Source of the DNA: Candidatus Margulisiibacteriota bacterium
GTDB lineage: Bacteria; Margulisbacteria; Riflemargulisbacteria; GWF2-39-127
Direction of reading: 5' to 3'
Assembly: GCA_003242895.1 (NCBI GenBank)
Contig: QKMY01000063.1
Location: 1 to 45,339 of the forward strand
Length of the DNA stretch: 45,339 nucleotides
Made by a program: the position numbers and the translations under genes. Numbering within the stretch: the first letter of the stretch is position 1; every line of letters starts with the position of its first letter. The notes beneath the pieces are model-generated. The model was not told the origin of the DNA, made no database searches, and saw only the letters and a program-made list of their open reading frames with translations. Shown in pieces: positions 951 to 34,268 of the stretch.

Positions 951-963
951 AGTAATGGTAATA

Positions 964-1316
964 GGGCAGGTAAGCCTATAAGCCGAGTTCTGTCGTGTAT
1001 GATTATTTCTCTGGGATTATCATCACTGATAACCTCAAGCGACCAACCCAGGAATCGTAACGGAACGAGCAGTTCCTCTTCCCCTATTTGGTCTTGCACT
1101 GAATGGGGTTTGCCAAGCAAGCATATTGCTACGCTTCTGGTGAGCTCTTACCATCACCATTTCGCCCTTACCACCGGATTAGAGTGGCGGTATATTTTCT
1201 GTTGCACTATCCGTAAGATTACTCTTCCCACTAGTTAAGTGGCATTCTGCTCTGTAGTGCTCGGACTTTCCTCATATAGTAAGAGTACTATACGCAACCA
1301 TACAGCCTACCTGCCT
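964..1316 (-). ncRNA. rnpB: RNase P RNA (bacterial type A-like)
   Basis: This is the catalytic RNA of ribonuclease P, which trims tRNA 5' leaders together with the RnpA protein (31813-32151 here). On the minus strand it carries the universal 5' motif GAGGAAAGTCCGAGC, a GGTAAGAGCTCACC-type helix, the CCCCAT...GTGCAAGACC segment, AATAGG, and the 3' motif ACAGAACTCGGCTTATAG. The ends pair as helix P1: GGCAGGTAGGC near 1316 with GCTTACCTGCC near 964. The length of about 353 nt is normal for the family. A small plus-strand reading frame across this stretch is a chance shadow. No intrinsic terminator is visible before the next gene. Confidence 0.97.
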
Positions 1317-1417: not shown

Positions 1418-2275
1418 CTATTGTATGCCCAGGCTATTAAGCAATTCCTGTTTTTCCTCAGGTGACGAATAACTAAAAACGAACTTCCCTGTCTTTTGAT
1501 TCCCTTTAAAAGTAAATTTTTTCCAAATGTTTTCCTTTATATAGCTTTCTTTCTCAAACACATACACCTGTTTTGCAGGAGTTGGGACCTTACCTATCTC
1601 CATACTTCTGCGGACCAAATCCTCTGCCTGACGAACACTTAATTTATCATTAATTATTTTATGCAAAGCATTAATTCTATCTTCATTTACTGACAAGGAC
1701 AATAATGTCCTCGCATGTCCGGCTGATATCGTGCCAGAAATAACGTGTTCAATAATTTCATCCGGAAGATCCAACAAACGAATAGCATTAGTTATTGCCG
1801 GCCGGCTCTTGCCGATTTTTTGAGCTAGCTCATCCTGGGTATAGCTGAATCGCTTTATCAGCTGCTGATACGCCCTGGCCTCCTCTATCGGGCCAATATC
1901 TTCTCTTTGAATATTTTCAATTAAAGCAATTTGGAGAGACTCTTCATCCGTTAGCTCTCTCACTATTGCCGGGATTATTTCCATCTTCAGCATTGAGCAG
2001 GCTCGCCATCGACGTTCGCCAGCAACAATCTCATACTTTGCGTTATCAATCTTTCTAACCAATATTGGCTGATTAATGCCATTACACTTTATTGAATCGG
2101 CAAGCTCTTTCATTTTCTCTTCATCAAATATAACTCGTGGCTGACTAGGATTTGGAACAATTTTTTCGATGGCCAGATACTGCAGCTCCGAAACTTGTGC
2201 CTTGTCTTCATCGAAATCAGGTATTAGGGCTCCAAGCCCTCTTCCCAATCGTGGTTTTTTGTCTTTAAGCAACAC
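1418..2275 (-). CDS. parB: chromosome partitioning protein ParB (Spo0J)
   Basis: ParB is a CTP-dependent DNA clamp that loads at parS and spreads, working with ParA to separate new origins. The 285-residue protein has the family layout. The N-terminal GRGLGALIP motif contacts ParA. The nucleotide-binding core follows, with GERRWRA near residue 105 and an ENIQRE segment after it. A helix-turn-helix centred on the KIGKSRPAITN segment reads parS, and a C-terminal dimerisation region closes the protein. The start is GTG at 2275, overlapping the 3' end of parA by 11 bp, which suggests translational coupling. A matching parS site lies 1.5 kb upstream at 3749-3764. The gene ends at a strong terminator. 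Confidence 0.97.
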   Translation of the reverse strand: MLLKDKKPRLGRGLGALIPDFDEDKAQVSELQYLAIEKIVPNPSQPRVIFDEEKMKELADSIKCNGINQPILVRKIDNAKYEIVAGERRWRACSMLKMEIIPAIVRELTDEESLQIALIENIQREDIGPIEEARAYQQLIKRFSYTQDELAQKIGKSRPAITNAIRLLDLPDEIIEHVISGTISAGHARTLLSLSVNEDRINALHKIINDKLSVRQAEDLVRRSMEIGKVPTPAKQVYVFEKESYIKENIWKKFTFKGNQKTGKFVFSYSSPEEKQELLNSLGIQ

Positions 2276-3026
2276 TTACTACCTCCTTAGCTAATCGCCG
2301 GTAAGCGATCGCTCCTTTCGATTCAGGCTCATACATTGAAATTGGCAATCCATGACTAGGCGCCTCAGACAATCGAATATTCCTGGGAATAACCGTCTCA
2401 AAAACTTTTTTCCCGAAGTAATTCTTGGCATCAACTACAACCTGATTATTTAACATAGTCCGAGCATCAAACATCGTCATAACGATACCCGCAATTTCTA
2501 ACCCCGGATTTATGCTTTTCTTTACTAACTTTAATGTCCCGATTAAATTACCAAGACCTTCTAAGGCATAATATTCGCATTGAACAGGAATAATAACCTT
2601 ATCAGACGCCCCAAGCGCATTAATGGTCAAGAGTCCGAGCGAAGGAGGACAATCAATAATAACATAATCAAAGCTATCTTTAATGCTCTTCATGCTCGAC
2701 TTCAACATATATTCTCTTGCCTCCATCCCAGCAAGCTCAACCTCAGCTCCCGCCAGATTCTTCGTAGCAGGTATTATTGAAAGATTCTCGATTTCAGTTG
2801 AAACAATACTATCGTTAATATCAACCCGACCTATAATGACTGAGTAGATATCAAACTCTATGCTATCCTTATTTACGCCAAGACCTGAAGAAGCATTGCC
2901 TTGTGGGTCCATATCAATAATCAGCGTTTTTTCTCCGCGACTTGCCAGATAGGCACTTAAGTTTACCGCAGTCGTTGTTTTCCCAACTCCGCCTTTTTGA
3001 TTCACGATCGAAAATATATTCCCCAT
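2265..3026 (-). CDS. parA: chromosome partitioning ATPase ParA (Soj)
   Basis: ParA is a dimerising ATPase that binds the nucleoid non-specifically and moves ParB-parS complexes. Among the 253 residues are the deviant Walker A KGGVGKTT (about residues 11-18) with its signature lysine, the switch I DMDPQGN segment, and the Walker B-like VIIDCPP. The length suits the small chromosomal Soj class, which lacks an N-terminal DNA-binding domain. The gene starts 3 bp after rsmG stops, and the purine-rich AGGGGATGA ahead of its ATG serves as ribosome binding site. It is part of the mnmG-side operon. Confidence 0.97.
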   Translation of the reverse strand: MGNIFSIVNQKGGVGKTTTAVNLSAYLASRGEKTLIIDMDPQGNASSGLGVNKDSIEFDIYSVIIGRVDINDSIVSTEIENLSIIPATKNLAGAEVELAGMEAREYMLKSSMKSIKDSFDYVIIDCPPSLGLLTINALGASDKVIIPVQCEYYALEGLGNLIGTLKLVKKSINPGLEIAGIVMTMFDARTMLNNQVVVDAKNYFGKKVFETVIPRNIRLSEAPSHGLPISMYEPESKGAIAYRRLAKEVVSVA

Positions 3027-3029
3027 GGT

Positions 3030-3740
3030 TCATCCCCTCTTATACATTTTTTTTAGCCTTATCAGTGGTCTCGGCTTAAAATCATTTACTTCTTTAGTCT
3101 TCTTATAAATGATGAGCACACGATCATCATCCTCAATAGAATACCGGATCTCTCTTTCAACAACTAAATTATACATCTGAACAATATCTTTTGCATCACT
3201 CAATTCTTCGGCTAATCCCTTACATGATTTATACGCAATAATATAGCCATTCTCCCGGACCAGGCCACTACACAATTCCAACATAATTGGCAAATAAAAT
3301 ATTGCCCGCCCAACAACGGCATCAACTTTACCGAGCGGGCTATGCTTGCCCGACAAGTCTTCAATTCTCGCATTTACAGCCTTCACCTGCTTCAAACCCA
3401 ACACACCAATGACATTTTCCAGAAATTTAACCTTTTTACCAACCGACTCTACAAGGTAAACACGAATATCACCATATAGTATTCCGATTGGAATTCCCGG
3501 AAATCCGGCACCGCTTCCCACATCGACGAGGCTTTCAATTTTCACCTGATCAAGAAAACTGACAACCTGCAAAGAGTCCTTGAAATGCTTCAAATATATT
3601 GACCGCTCATCCCTGATTGCTGTTAAATTAATTTTCTTATTCCACTCCACAAGAAGATCAGCGTAACGCACAATCTTATCAAGCACAGCATCGTCAGCAC
3701 TCTTCATTTCCAACAATTCAACAATTTCATCTTTTTTCAT
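3030..3740 (-). CDS. rsmG: 16S rRNA (guanine-527-N7)-methyltransferase
   Basis: RsmG (GidB) methylates G527 of 16S rRNA using SAM. The 236-residue sequence shows the family landmarks: NLTAIRD near residue 40, the SAM-binding loop VDVGSGAGFPGIP around residue 71, and VVGRAIF in the catalytic region. It is slightly longer than many homologues because of a basic tail after the methyltransferase fold. It sits between the regulator-like gene at 3765 and parA, its usual neighbour. The parS site lies in the 24-bp gap just upstream of its start codon. Confidence 0.95.
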   Translation of the reverse strand: MKKDEIVELLEMKSADDAVLDKIVRYADLLVEWNKKINLTAIRDERSIYLKHFKDSLQVVSFLDQVKIESLVDVGSGAGFPGIPIGILYGDIRVYLVESVGKKVKFLENVIGVLGLKQVKAVNARIEDLSGKHSPLGKVDAVVGRAIFYLPIMLELCSGLVRENGYIIAYKSCKGLAEELSDAKDIVQMYNLVVEREIRYSIEDDDRVLIIYKKTKEVNDFKPRPLIRLKKMYKRG

Positions 3741-3748
3741 AAGGCCCT

Positions 3749-3764
3749 CGTTTCACGTGAAACA
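3749..3764. promoter_or_regulatory. parS: parS centromere site
   Basis: The 16-bp palindrome CGTTTCACGTGAAACA matches the Spo0J/ParB consensus TGTTTCACGTGAAACA at 15 of 16 positions. It lies between rsmG and the upstream gene, 1.5 kb from parB and about 29 kb from the dnaA-linked origin. ParB would load here. Confidence 0.92.
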
Positions 3765-4340
3765 TCACTCCCGATCTAATATCATTTCCTTGGTGGCATT
3801 TACCGCATATACCATCTCTTCGTCATTGTTTCGAATTAAATCCCGAACATCACATCTTCTATAAAGCCGATAGTCAACTCTCTGAGTAAGGAATGCCAAT
3901 GTTTCCTGTATTTTACTCGCTATCTCAATGATTTTCGTACAGCCATCACATACCACCACAAGCAACGATTTCGTTGCAACCATACCACTTACGCTTTTTT
4001 CATACATAAAGGCGTATTCAATATCGCCAATCTTGGACAAAGCATCCCGAATACACAACCCAGCCAATTCTGTTTTATAAAAAATTCTCTTCAGCTCTGC
4101 ATAGAACACAAAAGATGTATTAAGACTGAATATCCTTAAATTAGCCCTTCGTTTTTCCAAGATAAAATTTATGCCGACGAGATTATCAAGCTCTTTCTGA
4201 TAAGAACTGAGATTCTTGCCGAGATCATTTTTTAGCATACTCATATAGATTTCTTTGTCTGGATTACGAAAGAAATACGACATCAAATCAACCCTCGATG
4301 CCGACGTAAACAAATTTTTCAACAGCCTGTCATCAGTCAT
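3765..4340 (-). CDS. winged-helix protein with inactivated nucleotidyltransferase-like domain
   Basis: The function of this 191-residue protein is unknown. Residues 5-75 look like an ArsR-type winged helix (LFTSASRVDLMSYFFRN, then a DNA-recognition helix, then a wing around EKRRANLRIF). Residues 80-170 align in outline with the MNT/Pol-beta nucleotidyltransferase domain that often follows this HTH. The region YAFMYEKSVSG stands where active members have YGSxxxG. The motif that should hold the two metal-binding aspartates (SDIDLLVV in typical members) is shortened to SLLVVV. Catalysis is therefore unlikely, and a DNA-binding or sensing role is my inference. No clear Shine-Dalgarno precedes the ATG. 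The stop codon directly abuts parS. It lies between mnmG and rsmG in the same orientation. It could also be a plain transcription factor whose C-terminal domain I have misassigned. Confidence 0.6.
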   Translation of the reverse strand: MTDDRLLKNLFTSASRVDLMSYFFRNPDKEIYMSMLKNDLGKNLSSYQKELDNLVGINFILEKRRANLRIFSLNTSFVFYAELKRIFYKTELAGLCIRDALSKIGDIEYAFMYEKSVSGMVATKSLLVVVCDGCTKIIEIASKIQETLAFLTQRVDYRLYRRCDVRDLIRNNDEEMVYAVNATKEMILDRE

Positions 4341-4346
4341 ATTTTG

Positions 4347-4404
4347 TCTTTACTATTTTTTCGTAACGTCGTACTACTTTATAGTTTTATCTTACTATTT
4401 TTTT
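4347..4404. repeat. pair of direct repeats upstream of the winged-helix gene
   Basis: Two near-identical 15-mers, TCTTTACTATTTTTT (4347-4361) and TCTTACTATTTTTTT (4390-4404), lie 43 bp apart in the 80-bp gap between mnmG and the winged-helix gene. On the minus strand they read roughly AAAAAATAGTAAGA. They could be an operator for that regulator, but the region is simply A/T-rich and chance is possible. Confidence 0.35.
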
Positions 4405-4420
4405 ATCGTTTTATAAACAA

Positions 4421-6295
4421 CTAATTTTGGAAACTGTTTTTGTGAAGATATATGACCAGAACGGATATATCTGCGGGATTAACACCGGAAATTCGAGATG
4501 CCTGCCCAAGATTTTCAGGGCGAATCTTATCTAGCTTTTCGGCAGCTTCTTTGCGTAATCCTGAAATATCCTTATAATTAACGGCTGCAGGAATCTTCTT
4601 TTTCTCAAAATCTTTTGACTTCTGTATTTGGCGATCTATTCTTTCGATATAGCCCTTATATTTGACTTCAATCTCAACATTCTCCCCATAAGGAAAGTCT
4701 TTTTCAATTTTGAAGCCATCAAAGGCAGATAAGTTTTTCCAGGTCACCTCGACCCTCTGCAGCAACTCAGCATAAGAAAGCTTTTTTCTTAAAGATGTAG
4801 TAAAAGACGCCAGAAGATCATTCGTGATCTCGTTTGGATAAACATAGTTTTTTTCAACGCTATCGAGATAATGACGGATAGATTTTTGTTTCGTGATATA
4901 TTGATCATAAATAGGCTTAGCTACCAAGCCGATCCCATAACCCTTTTCCAGTAACCGCCGATCAGCATTATCTTGTCTGAGAAGCAATCGATATTCGGCC
5001 CGTGCCGTCATCATCCGGTATGGTTCCTGGATATCTTTATTAATAAGATCATCAATCAACAGACCAATATATGATTCCTCGCGTGATAGAATTAAAGATT
5101 CTTTACCCTTCACCTTCAAGGCAGCATTAATTCCAGCCATAAGTCCCTGTCCGGCAGCTTCTTCATAGCCACTGGTCCCATTAATTTGTCCTGCCAGAAA
5201 AAGTCCCTGAACGGATTTTGTCTCCAAATTGTATTTTAGTTGATATGGAAATACGAAATCATATTCAACGGCATAGCCAGGCCTCATTACAACAACGGAT
5301 TCCAGTCCAGAGATACTATGTAAAGCCTCAATCTGCACATCAACCGGAAGGCTGGTATTGAAGCCTTGAATATATATTTCATTTGTTTCCAAACCCTCTG
5401 GCTCAACAAACAAATGATGTGAAGATTTATCAGAAAACCTCACAATCTTATCTTCAATCGAAGGACAATACCGGGGGCCAATACCTTTAATTTTTCCAGC
5501 ATATAAAGGAGATCGGTCAAGATTATTCAAAATGATTTCGTGAGTTTTAAGATTAGTATGAGTCAAATAACAAGGGATTTGGGCTCTTGCAGGGCTTGGG
5601 TGAAAAAAGGAAAATCGCTTCTCATCCTCGTCCCCAGGCTGAATTACTATTTTTTCGTAATTGATTGTTCTGCCATCTAATCGGGGCGTTGTTCCAGTTT
5701 TTAAGCGACCTAAATTCAGTCCTAACGCCTTTAGGCTATCTGACAAATGCACAGAAGTTTGTTCGCCTAATCTCCCGGCAGGTTGAGAAACAAACCCGGT
5801 ATGGATTATTCCATTCAGAAAAGTCCCTGTTGTTACGATGATGCAGGCCGCCTCATAAGTCACGCCCAGAATAGTTTTTACGCTTTTTACGTAATTGCTG
5901 TTATCAACCGAAATGTCAGTTACCATATCTTGCTTGATCTCCAAGTTAGCTTGGTTTTCACAGGTCTTTTTCATATAGACTTGATATAGGAGTTTATCAG
6001 ACTGGGCACGTAAGGATTGCACGGCAGGACCTTTTGAACGGTTCAGAACTTTCATCTGGATATAGGTCATATCGGCAGCAATGCTCATCTGCCCGCCAAG
6101 GGCATCGATCTCTGAAACAATATGGCTTTTTCCCGGGCCACCGATTGCCGGATTGCAAGGCATGTAACCAATGCGATCGAGGTTGATTGTCAGCATTAAT
6201 GTGCTACAACCCATTCTAGATGAAGCGAGGGCAGCTTCAACTCCAGCATGCCCTCCTCCGATTACTATTACATCATAATGTTTTGGATAAATCAT
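4421..6295 (-). CDS. mnmG: tRNA uridine-34 cmnm5 modification enzyme MnmG (GidA)
   Basis: MnmG is an FAD protein that, with MnmE (28897-30264 here), installs carboxymethylaminomethyl on U34 of several tRNAs. The 624-residue length is typical. Visible landmarks are the N-terminal dinucleotide-binding VIVIGGGHAGVEAA, PCNPAIGGPGKSH near residue 47, the GRLGEQTS and LKTGTTPRLDG motifs, a second FAD motif LFLAGQINGTSGYEEAAGQG, and the YRMMTARAEYRLLLRQDNAD region. The C-terminal helical domain (ASRISGVNPADI) binds MnmE. It heads the rsmG-parA-parB gene string. In many bacteria mnmE is close by; here it is 22 kb away. Confidence 0.97.
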   Translation of the reverse strand: MIYPKHYDVIVIGGGHAGVEAALASSRMGCSTLMLTINLDRIGYMPCNPAIGGPGKSHIVSEIDALGGQMSIAADMTYIQMKVLNRSKGPAVQSLRAQSDKLLYQVYMKKTCENQANLEIKQDMVTDISVDNSNYVKSVKTILGVTYEAACIIVTTGTFLNGIIHTGFVSQPAGRLGEQTSVHLSDSLKALGLNLGRLKTGTTPRLDGRTINYEKIVIQPGDEDEKRFSFFHPSPARAQIPCYLTHTNLKTHEIILNNLDRSPLYAGKIKGIGPRYCPSIEDKIVRFSDKSSHHLFVEPEGLETNEIYIQGFNTSLPVDVQIEALHSISGLESVVVMRPGYAVEYDFVFPYQLKYNLETKSVQGLFLAGQINGTSGYEEAAGQGLMAGINAALKVKGKESLILSREESYIGLLIDDLINKDIQEPYRMMTARAEYRLLLRQDNADRRLLEKGYGIGLVAKPIYDQYITKQKSIRHYLDSVEKNYVYPNEITNDLLASFTTSLRKKLSYAELLQRVEVTWKNLSAFDGFKIEKDFPYGENVEIEVKYKGYIERIDRQIQKSKDFEKKKIPAAVNYKDISGLRKEAAEKLDKIRPENLGQASRISGVNPADISVLVIYLHKNSFQN

Positions 6296-12655: not shown

Positions 12656-13540
12656 CTACCTTGTAAGCGTTACTTCTACAGGCATTCCGATTTTTAAGGC
12701 TCCAGAAATATTATGGACCTTAATTTTGACTTCATAGACGAGCGATGTTCTGGTCTCTTTGGTTAATATCGTCTTTGGTGTAAACTCCGCTTCCGAGGCA
12801 ATCCAGGACACCGTCCCTTCAATTGGAGCAGGACTTCCATCGACACTGACATAAGCAGTCTGACCAATCTTTATCGTCAATAACGTCTTGGTAGGGATAT
12901 AAATATATACATTCATTTTTTCCAAATCCGCAATCTCTGCTAAAGGAGTCCCGGGACTTACGAGCTCTCCGGCATTACGGTACTTATTCACTACGGTTCC
13001 TCGAATTGGCGAAAGAACCTCTGAGTTCTTAATCTGAATATTGGTTAATTGAATCACGGTATTCGCTTGTTCAATTCTGTTTTTTGCGAGATTATAATTG
13101 GTTATTAATGTCCTAAGCTGCGCATCTGCTACCTTTGTCTGCGTTGCCAGCTCATCCCTTAGCTGTACGGTTGCCGCACCTTCGGTAACTAATAATTCTG
13201 TTTTCAATAAAAGCTCATGATTAAGATCAATTTGAGGCTGAAGTTGCTGCATTTGTGATTCGATCGATTCCAAGCTTAACTCTGCTTCCCGAACTTTTTC
13301 ATACTGAAGCTGTCTTTGGACTGCTACATTCTCAGTATCAACTCTGGCGATAACCTGTCCGGTGACGATTGCATCTCCCTCTTCCAGATCGAATTGCCTG
13401 ATAATTCCTGTTCCTTGAGAAGATAATTTTATTTTTGTTGCCTCAATCTGACCGCTATAAGTATCAAGTTTTTTGTTTGTTGTACATCCTTGAATCGTCA
13501 CCATCAGCCCAATAATAAGAAATATTTTTAAGTTACCCAT
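12656..13540 (-). CDS. HlyD-family periplasmic adaptor lipoprotein
   Basis: This membrane-fusion protein links the inner-membrane ABC exporter to the TolC-like channel. I place the start at the ATG at 13540 (294 residues) because GGAGG lies 9 nt upstream. A GTG five codons earlier overlaps that ribosome binding site. A lipobox IQGC near residue 18 predicts lipid anchoring. Then come a biotinyl-lipoyl-like half motif (EGDAIVTGQVIARVD), a coiled-coil hairpin (about residues 60-155), the second lipoyl half (VLSPIRGTVVNKYRNAGELVSPG) and a beta-barrel domain. It is shorter than HlyD itself and resembles YbhG/YhiI. The start codon overlaps the tolC-like stop as TAATG. Confidence 0.92.
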   Translation of the reverse strand: MGNLKIFLIIGLMVTIQGCTTNKKLDTYSGQIEATKIKLSSQGTGIIRQFDLEEGDAIVTGQVIARVDTENVAVQRQLQYEKVREAELSLESIESQMQQLQPQIDLNHELLLKTELLVTEGAATVQLRDELATQTKVADAQLRTLITNYNLAKNRIEQANTVIQLTNIQIKNSEVLSPIRGTVVNKYRNAGELVSPGTPLAEIADLEKMNVYIYIPTKTLLTIKIGQTAYVSVDGSPAPIEGTVSWIASEAEFTPKTILTKETRTSLVYEVKIKVHNISGALKIGMPVEVTLTR

Positions 13541-14826
13541 TAATTTAACCTCCACTCAGAAATCGGCATTCCACTCAAATAATCAATTTCTATAACTTTT
13601 AATGATATCTTTACTTTATGCTGTTCAAGCAGGAGTTCTGCTTCAGTAAATTCATTGTTTGCCGCATTAACATCGGTAAGAGTACTGAACCCACGATCAG
13701 CCTGATTTCTAACAAGCTCCATTTTTGTTCGGGCAAGGCTCGCAGATTCTTTCAAATAATCTAATTGTTTCAGCATTGTCTTGGATTCTCTTACTGTCGC
13801 GTCATAGGCAAGTTGTATCTGATCACGCGAATGTTGTTCTTGATAGTCAAGGACAGCCATTTCTTTATTTTGAGCGTTTACATTTGCCTTAGAGGTACCA
13901 GAGTCCCACAGGTTCCATCTAATTCCAGCGCCTACTGAGTAATACCCCATCCATTCATTATCTATAGGGTTCACTCCTGGTTTTGCATATTTATAAGTAG
14001 CGCTTAATGAAATATCAGGATAATCTTTGGATTTATTAATGATTTGATTAGCTTCTGATACTTGCTTTTTTATGAGATAGGTTTTGATTTCTTCCTTTTC
14101 TGCTAAATTTAACGTGGAGGCATTCATATCCGTCATATATTTTGAGGTGGCACTAATCGTAACCGGTTCGCCTACCATTGACTTGAGCTGATCTAAATTA
14201 TTTGAGATATTTGAATTAATTTCCACAAGTTGCTGCTCATATCGTGATATTGAAAGCTTTAAAGTCAGTTCATCCGTTACCAATGCCATGCCTTGATTAA
14301 TCAGCGCACGTATTTTTTGCACGTGGTTATTCACCCGTTCTTTTACAGCATTTATAATTTCTTTCTGGGCTAATAGCACGTTTGTATTCATATAAACTTT
14401 TGCGACATTAAACGCGATATCTTTTTCATTCTTCTTTAATTGCACTTCAGCCACCTGCTTCTGCAGATGTTTGAGCTGAATTGTCGCTTCCCTGGAATAC
14501 CCGTTGAATAACAAATATGATGTGCCTATTCCTAATTCATAATTATTATTAACTCCGGTCTCAATCTTCCGTGGCGGGAGCGCAATAGACGGGACCTCGC
14601 TAATATACCGGTATGAAGAATCTATTATCACAGAGGGAAGATATTGCTTCTGAACAGCCTCGATTTCGTAATCCGCTTTTTCTATTGTTTCACGTGAAGC
14701 TTTCATTATAAAATTATTTTTAACTGCTTTTGCGATGAGGCTACGCAAATTTTCTGCTTTCGCTTGATATGGAGATAAAAACAAAAACAATAATCCAACT
14801 ATCATTACAATCTTTTTCCGATTCAC
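13540..14826 (-). CDS. TolC-family outer-membrane efflux protein
   Basis: This 428-residue outer-membrane channel subunit probably trimerises to give the exit duct for the ABC exporter. It has an N-terminal signal peptide (about residues 1-24, cleavage after AKA). Two tandem outer-membrane efflux repeats follow (about 28-220 and 235-420), each with long heptad-like helices and short strands such as YELGIGTSYLLFNGYS and YSVGAGIRWNLWDSGTS. The start is GTG, overlapping the tetR stop as GTGA, with an excellent AAGGGGTGAT ribosome binding site. The coding sequence contains a parS-like palindrome at 14686-14701. Confidence 0.9.
   Translation of the reverse strand: MNRKKIVMIVGLLFLFLSPYQAKAENLRSLIAKAVKNNFIMKASRETIEKADYEIEAVQKQYLPSVIIDSSYRYISEVPSIALPPRKIETGVNNNYELGIGTSYLLFNGYSREATIQLKHLQKQVAEVQLKKNEKDIAFNVAKVYMNTNVLLAQKEIINAVKERVNNHVQKIRALINQGMALVTDELTLKLSISRYEQQLVEINSNISNNLDQLKSMVGEPVTISATSKYMTDMNASTLNLAEKEEIKTYLIKKQVSEANQIINKSKDYPDISLSATYKYAKPGVNPIDNEWMGYYSVGAGIRWNLWDSGTSKANVNAQNKEMAVLDYQEQHSRDQIQLAYDATVRESKTMLKQLDYLKESASLARTKMELVRNQADRGFSTLTDVNAANNEFTEAELLLEQHKVKISLKVIEIDYLSGMPISEWRLN
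14686..14701. promoter_or_regulatory. second parS-like site inside the tolC-like gene
   Basis: TGTTTCACGTGAAGCT matches the ParB consensus TGTTTCACGTGAAACA at 14 of 16 positions, keeping the central TTTCACGTGAA. It lies 10.9 kb from the first site. Chromosomal parS sites inside genes are common in other bacteria. Whether ParB binds this one depends on the two mismatched outer bases. Confidence 0.6.
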
Positions 14827-32852: not shown

Positions 32853-34268
32853 TTGATTACTGATTATTCTATCGAAGACATTTGGCAGGAGCTCATTGCT
32901 TCTCTAAGAAAAAATCTTAGTACCCCCGGGTTTGAAACGTTCAAAACGACAGCTCAACCCATTTCCTTTAATGATGGAGTTTTAGTTATTGGCGTTCCAA
33001 ATGAGTTTACAAAAAACTGGCTAAAAGAGCGTGTTGAACTATTAATAAAAAGTACCATCAAAAATGCCTTCTTTATTAGTGTGATGGTAGATTTTCAGGT
33101 TTCTTCTGAAGCTAAGAAAAGTTTGGAAACCGTGTCGGTGGAAGAAGAGCGCCGTACCAATGAAACCAAAGCAAACTCCAGTTCAGAGTATCACAACCGA
33201 AACAACAATAATGCCAGCAATTCTCTTGCAATGAAAGTAAGTAGCTCCAACCTAAATAGTAAGTATACTTTTGAATCATTTGTTGTCGGGCAATCAAATC
33301 GATTTGCCCATGCTGCCACGATTGCAGTTTCGTCGGCTCCGGGAAAAGCCTATAACCCATTGTTCATTTATGGTGGGGTAGGTTTAGGAAAAACCCATCT
33401 TATGCATGCTATCGGCATGAAAGCCATGGAAAATAATCCAGATATAAATGTTCTCTATGTATCGTCAGAAACATTTACAAATGAATTAATCAACGCCATA
33501 AGGGATGATAAAACCGCTAAATTCCGGGAAAAATATCGGAATATAGACGTCCTCCTAATTGATGATATCCAATTTTTAGCTGGAAAAGAAAGAACACAAG
33601 AAGAGTTTTTCCATACGTTTAACTCTTTGCATGAATATAACAAACAAATTGTCATCTCCTCTGATCGCCCGCCCAAAGACATACCGACGCTAGAGGACCG
33701 GTTAAAATCCCGGTTTGATTGGGGTTTATCGACAGATATTCAGGCTCCGGAGCTTGAAACCAGGATAGCTATTCTAAAAAAGAAAGCCGAACTGGAAGGT
33801 TTAGAGATTCCAATTAATGTCCTTAATTTTATTGCGACCCAAATTCCTTCGAATATCCGTGAGCTGGAAGGCGCACTTATACGAATAATAGCTTATGCCT
33901 CGTTAATTAATAGTCAGATAAGTATTGAACTCGCAAGCGATGTCATTAAAGATATCATCATACCGAAACAGAACAAACCGGTAACAATCGATCTTATTAA
34001 GAAAACTGTAGCCTCGTATTTTAATATTACGGTAGATAATATGTGCTCAAAAACACGTACCAAGGATCTGGCTATGTATCGACAAATAGCGATGTACCTG
34101 GCACGAGACCTGACAAATACCTCACTGCCTAATATCGGCAAAAGCTTTGGAGGTCGGGACCACACTACCGTTATGTATGCGTGCGATAAAGTAAAAGAAA
34201 TGTTAGAAATTGATGAAGTAACAAAGAATTCTTTTAAAGATATTCTAACAAAATTAGGAAGAATCTAA
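32853..34268 (+). CDS. dnaA: chromosomal replication initiator DnaA
   Basis: DnaA is an AAA+ ATPase that binds DnaA boxes and opens the origin. The 471 residues fall into domain I (about 1-85, WQELIASLRKNLSTPGFETF), a variable Asn/Ser-rich linker (about 86-135) and the AAA+ domain with Walker A GGVGLGKT at 174-181. Walker B VLLIDDIQFL and the sensor region SSDRPPKDIPTLEDRLKSRF follow. Domain IV has the box-reading motif GRDHTTVMYA. The start is TTG with AAGGAG 11 nt upstream. DnaA boxes on both sides suggest autoregulation as well as origin function. Confidence 0.98.
   Translation: MITDYSIEDIWQELIASLRKNLSTPGFETFKTTAQPISFNDGVLVIGVPNEFTKNWLKERVELLIKSTIKNAFFISVMVDFQVSSEAKKSLETVSVEEERRTNETKANSSSEYHNRNNNNASNSLAMKVSSSNLNSKYTFESFVVGQSNRFAHAATIAVSSAPGKAYNPLFIYGGVGLGKTHLMHAIGMKAMENNPDINVLYVSSETFTNELINAIRDDKTAKFREKYRNIDVLLIDDIQFLAGKERTQEEFFHTFNSLHEYNKQIVISSDRPPKDIPTLEDRLKSRFDWGLSTDIQAPELETRIAILKKKAELEGLEIPINVLNFIATQIPSNIRELEGALIRIIAYASLINSQISIELASDVIKDIIIPKQNKPVTIDLIKKTVASYFNITVDNMCSKTRTKDLAMYRQIAMYLARDLTNTSLPNIGKSFGGRDHTTVMYACDKVKEMLEIDEVTKNSFKDILTKLGRI

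Follow-up and report, generated by a model that had tools for sequence, protein, structure and literature searches.

The window analysed here, 45,339 nucleotides of a Candidatus Margulisiibacteriota genome, carries the gene row mnmG-X-rsmG-parA-parB, where X denotes an intact open reading frame of 191 codons. The features of the locus and of the encoded protein are as follows.

1418-3026, minus strand: parA and parB, downstream of rsmG
3030-3740, minus strand: rsmG (gidB, PF02527), downstream neighbour of X
3750-3763, no strand assigned: parS core GTTTCACGTGAAAC, without a second perfect copy in the genome; part of the rsmG 5' region
3765-4340, minus strand: X, open reading frame of 191 aa with ATG start; winged helix plus catalytically dead MNT domain
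3948-4001, minus strand: former GSX10DXD motif and the strand that follows it, X codons 114-131 (from the alignment, coordinates counted from the start of the reading frame at 4340)
4341-4420, minus strand: mnmG-X intergenic region, 80 bp, with two copies of TTACTATTTTTT; a possible but weak operator
4421-6295, minus strand: mnmG (gidA, PF01134), upstream neighbour of X
X aa ~4-73, N half: winged helix
X aa 80-102: linker, a long helix in the AlphaFold2 model
X aa 107-189, C half: MNT domain, catalytically dead

The frame of X has the highest coding potential at its position, its GC and GC3 resemble those of the neighbouring genes, and its codon usage is normal. The stop codon ends at 3765, leaving a single base to the parS core, of which the 3.35 Mb genome holds one perfect copy; the original prediction had thus placed the gene correctly, between mnmG and rsmG and with its stop codon at parS. 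The sole site with one mismatch to the 14-bp core (at 14687; site 14686-14701) lies inside an open reading frame (13540-14826) that by eye resembles an outer-membrane efflux protein. Since the window also contains dnaA (a dnaA-like reading frame at 32853), dnaN, recF, gyrB and gyrA, all recognised by eye, the locus is origin-proximal. A class A RNase P RNA is found downstream of parB (963-1313, minus strand). The repeats earlier marked at 4347-4404 are two copies of TTACTATTTTTT, at 4350 and 4392 on the plus strand; a third copy occurs at 5644 within mnmG, and these low-complexity repeats are weak evidence of an operator.

Domains and active site of X

None of the Pfam and NCBIfam models matches X itself, a direct sequence search of the PDB with X alone gave no usable match, and a scan of the genome collection with X as query returned none. 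The ancestry of X was established by comparison with intact winged-helix/MNT proteins, both directly, against one from the same phylum (L002, E 3.9e-19), and by profile (hhalign probability 98.7%, E 3.4e-16). The AlphaFold2 model built from the family alignment (pLDDT 83) has a winged helix-turn-helix followed by an MNT core. In Foldseek, the best matches of the N half are MarR/ArsR-type regulators and those of the C half the Legionella MNT antitoxin 8xeo/8xeh, with probabilities of 1.00 but E values of 1e-3 to 1e-2; as no match passes E 0.001, the fold is assigned from sequence homology together with a Foldseek probability near 1.

Alignment with the relatives shows that the GSX10DXD motif has been lost in X through G114E, S115K, D126L and D128V (E114-K115...L126-x-V128), while Gly133 and Arg153, conserved throughout the family, are still present. 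Mutation of this motif abolishes AMPylation by MntA (PMC7641770), and X should therefore be catalytically inactive. In all, the description of an inactivated nucleotidyltransferase fused to a winged helix was borne out by the motif alignment, the homology and the model, in which the MNT fold is indeed found.

X shares the MNT fold with the antitoxin of the HEPN/MNT (HepT/MntA) type VII toxin-antitoxin system (PDB 6m6u/7bxo, 8xeo/8xeh) but differs from it in the loss of GS and both aspartates, the lack of a HEPN partner and the presence of an N-terminal winged helix. The latter fold is common to ArsR/MarR-type regulators (3r0a, 3vb2, 6o8k), which differ from X in lacking a fused dead MNT domain. 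AbiEi/AbiEii pairs likewise combine a winged-helix protein with a nucleotidyltransferase; there, however, each is a protein of its own and the toxin is the active nucleotidyltransferase, whereas X is one polypeptide with a dead domain. Separate helix-turn-helix and nucleotidyltransferase genes that look AbiE-like by eye were seen in three members of the window's class, all of family f3, where a reading frame of 111-112 aa resembling the family's winged-helix half overlaps or abuts a nucleotidyltransferase-like one of ~177 aa carrying VGGACVSIYS...SGDL (L128:1826-2687, L129:1724-2594 and L130:2474-3336).

Intact and dead relatives across the phylum

A survey of 74 genomes of the phylum Margulisbacteria yielded 23 full-length copies, 16 outside the window's class and seven within it. 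GS and DXD are intact in all 16 copies outside the class, and in 15 of them a HEPN gene lies directly downstream, in agreement with the earlier suggestion that active relatives occur as antitoxins. Most of these HEPN reading frames were identified with a profile derived from ten of the downstream frames themselves, which is therefore not independent of the set; one of those scanned with Pfam passes (2.3e-8) and four do not, and the one downstream of L080 was assessed by reading the locus. The sole intact gene without a downstream HEPN (L008:2034-2600) has a PIN-like reading frame downstream on the opposite strand. Like HepT/MntA, the intact relatives keep both GSX10DXD and the HEPN gene; they are a predicted HEPN/MNT toxin-antitoxin module whose antitoxin bears a winged helix. 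Because the intact version in distant relatives adjoins a toxin gene, X looks like an antitoxin without its toxin.

Within the class the picture is reversed. Seven of the eight genomes hold a full-length copy, exactly one each; all seven copies are catalytically dead and none has a HEPN partner, the vicinity of X being free of HEPN genes within 700 bp, with mnmG and rsmG as neighbours. No full-length copy was found in the eighth genome, which is 82% complete. In the six class-mate copies S115 is replaced by E, Q, H, D or C, D126 by P, and D128 by K, Q, N or H. X comes from family f1 and the other six from f2 and f3, none from its own family, and X is highly divergent (17-27% identity, tree branch 2.8). 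Its grouping with the f2/f3 copies has 72/45 support and appears in 38% of bootstraps when the motif columns are left out, so that one shared inactivation and two separate ones both stay as candidates.

The dead f2/f3 proteins are 79-92% identical in the winged helix, against 54-82% in the MNT half. Among pairs of these homologues pN is 0.04-0.34, well below pS in both halves, with synonymous change saturated; these class-mate genes are under purifying selection. A model of the class-mate protein L010 made from six sequences, all of them dead, is good in the MNT half and of low confidence in the winged-helix half, and its top Foldseek matches are still MntA/MNT structures. These data bear on the idea that X is a functionless relic in decay. 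The very long branch of X, which has no close relative that would permit a selection test, fits such decay; yet the reading frame is intact, codon usage is normal and the model is confident, and the retention of one full-length copy in seven of eight genomes, together with the selection on f2/f3, makes a relic quite unlikely.

X might also have stayed antitoxin-like, neutralising by binding, and without AMPylation, a HEPN toxin, or one of another kind, encoded at another locus. It has kept the MNT fold, and since the genome has 11 loci matching NTP_transf_2, HEPN partners in trans are likely to exist. Ordinary MNT genes would have partners of their own, however, HEPN lies beside none of the seven dead genes, and GSX10DXD mutants neutralise less well (PMC7641770). 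We regard this alternative as unlikely.

Position and promoter of the class-mate genes

The original prediction had named absence of the gene from the site between mnmG and rsmG in all close relatives as a point against it. The gene is indeed retained in six class-mates, but in none of them at that position. It adjoins dprA in five of the six, within a dxr-dprA row (dprA being identified by Pfam in one case and by eye and gene order in the rest), and in the remaining one, G003, two small reading frames separate it from dprA, at a distance of about 1 kb. In G002 and G004 the gene lies roughly 9-11 kb from mnmG. In G000 the row pyrH-frr-uppS-cdsA-dxr-dprA is found on another contig and lacks the family gene. 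In each of the seven class-mates, clusters of parS remain where rsmG begins. That X lies beside parS is therefore best taken to reflect the place of parS at rsmG together with a different location of the gene in this lineage; with class-mate genes elsewhere and parS staying by rsmG, the link between X and parS looks circumstantial.

All six class-mate genes (L010, L011, L013-L016) have TTGAC-N2-3-TGACCA-N8-GTACYATW upstream; the motif stops 5-8 nt short of the ATG and keeps a fixed register, while the flanks diverge. Because these six sites also served to define the box, finding it at them is a matter of construction; what is informative is its fixed register and the occurrence of the exact box once per class-mate genome, at the own gene only and not at parAB. 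Matches with one mismatch occur at about control frequency, and a regulon built from them was rejected as being at or near the control level; one such pair common to G001 and G003, members of one genus, is located where a coding region ends and was read as coding conservation. The box was not found upstream of X, where the repeats, tried as a variant of it, scored -2.5 against 32-35 at true sites. In the class-mates a -10 hexamer ends 6-9 nt before the ATG. This arrangement suggests leaderless or nearly leaderless mRNAs, and the box reads as a putative promoter with a conserved TGACCA element in its spacer; its conservation could reflect constraint on the promoter and not an operator.

The proposal that X is an origin-linked regulator, acting on segregation or on the rsmG-parAB operon through parS or the nearby repeats, can now be weighed. 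In its favour, X abuts the sole perfect parS, dnaA is about 28 kb away, and X probably shares a transcript with rsmG-parA-parB. Its class-mate homologues, however, sit outside mnmG-rsmG while the parS cluster is still at rsmG, and their exact box is found at the own gene and not at parAB. A regulatory role is plausible, and proximity to the origin agrees with the dnaA-like frame, but the tie to parS and segregation does not hold up in the class-mates, and we consider this proposal highly improbable.

A probable orphaned antitoxin as a candidate regulator

The interpretation we favour, with moderate confidence, is that X is an antitoxin which has been orphaned and has lost catalysis, and which persists as a DNA-binding protein regulating its own expression. 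Its ancestor would have been the antitoxin of a HEPN/MNT-type module, an MNT protein with an N-terminal ArsR-like winged helix. The order of events that we infer is that the HEPN toxin gene was lost, whereupon AMPylation of the partner would no longer be needed, and that the active site then decayed; the protein would have been retained as a DNA-binding transcription regulator that probably acts on the promoter of X, while the MNT shell would now mediate dimerisation or sense a ligand. Conservation is stronger in the DNA-binding half of the dead class-mate homologues, which makes a regulatory role plausible. On the other side, X is highly divergent, has no close relatives and lacks the class-mates' box upstream, so that their function may not transfer to it.

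In a sharper form of the favoured reading, the MNT shell would be a ligand sensor that binds a nucleotide without catalysis and switches the winged helix, as in an allosteric transcription factor. Gly133 and Arg153, conserved in the family, have been kept along with the fold, and the MNT half is also constrained in class-mates, but the metal-binding residues and the GS that hold ATP are gone; we see this form as rather unlikely. It is very unlikely that the full scenario applies, in which a HEPN/MNT antitoxin became, across the class, a dedicated dead transcription factor present in one copy and with an autoregulated, near-leaderless promoter, moved here into the partition operon, where it could couple a ligand to rsmG-parAB.

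Solo antitoxin homologues have been proposed as transcription regulators (PMC2701414). Like X, these are antitoxin homologues without a toxin; what sets the window's class apart is that all full-length copies found have lost the catalytic motif as well. The parts are of known kinds, and what is new is a version that is dead and partnerless throughout the class and has a promoter box of its own; a literature search of partial coverage found no description of such a winged-helix/MNT version. Toxin-antitoxin genes have often been suggested to undergo domestication, and a clear series showing the states before and after is useful. The present one sets intact modules from other parts of the phylum against dead, partnerless single copies across one class, and the conserved promoter box of the class-mates provides a defined candidate DNA target.
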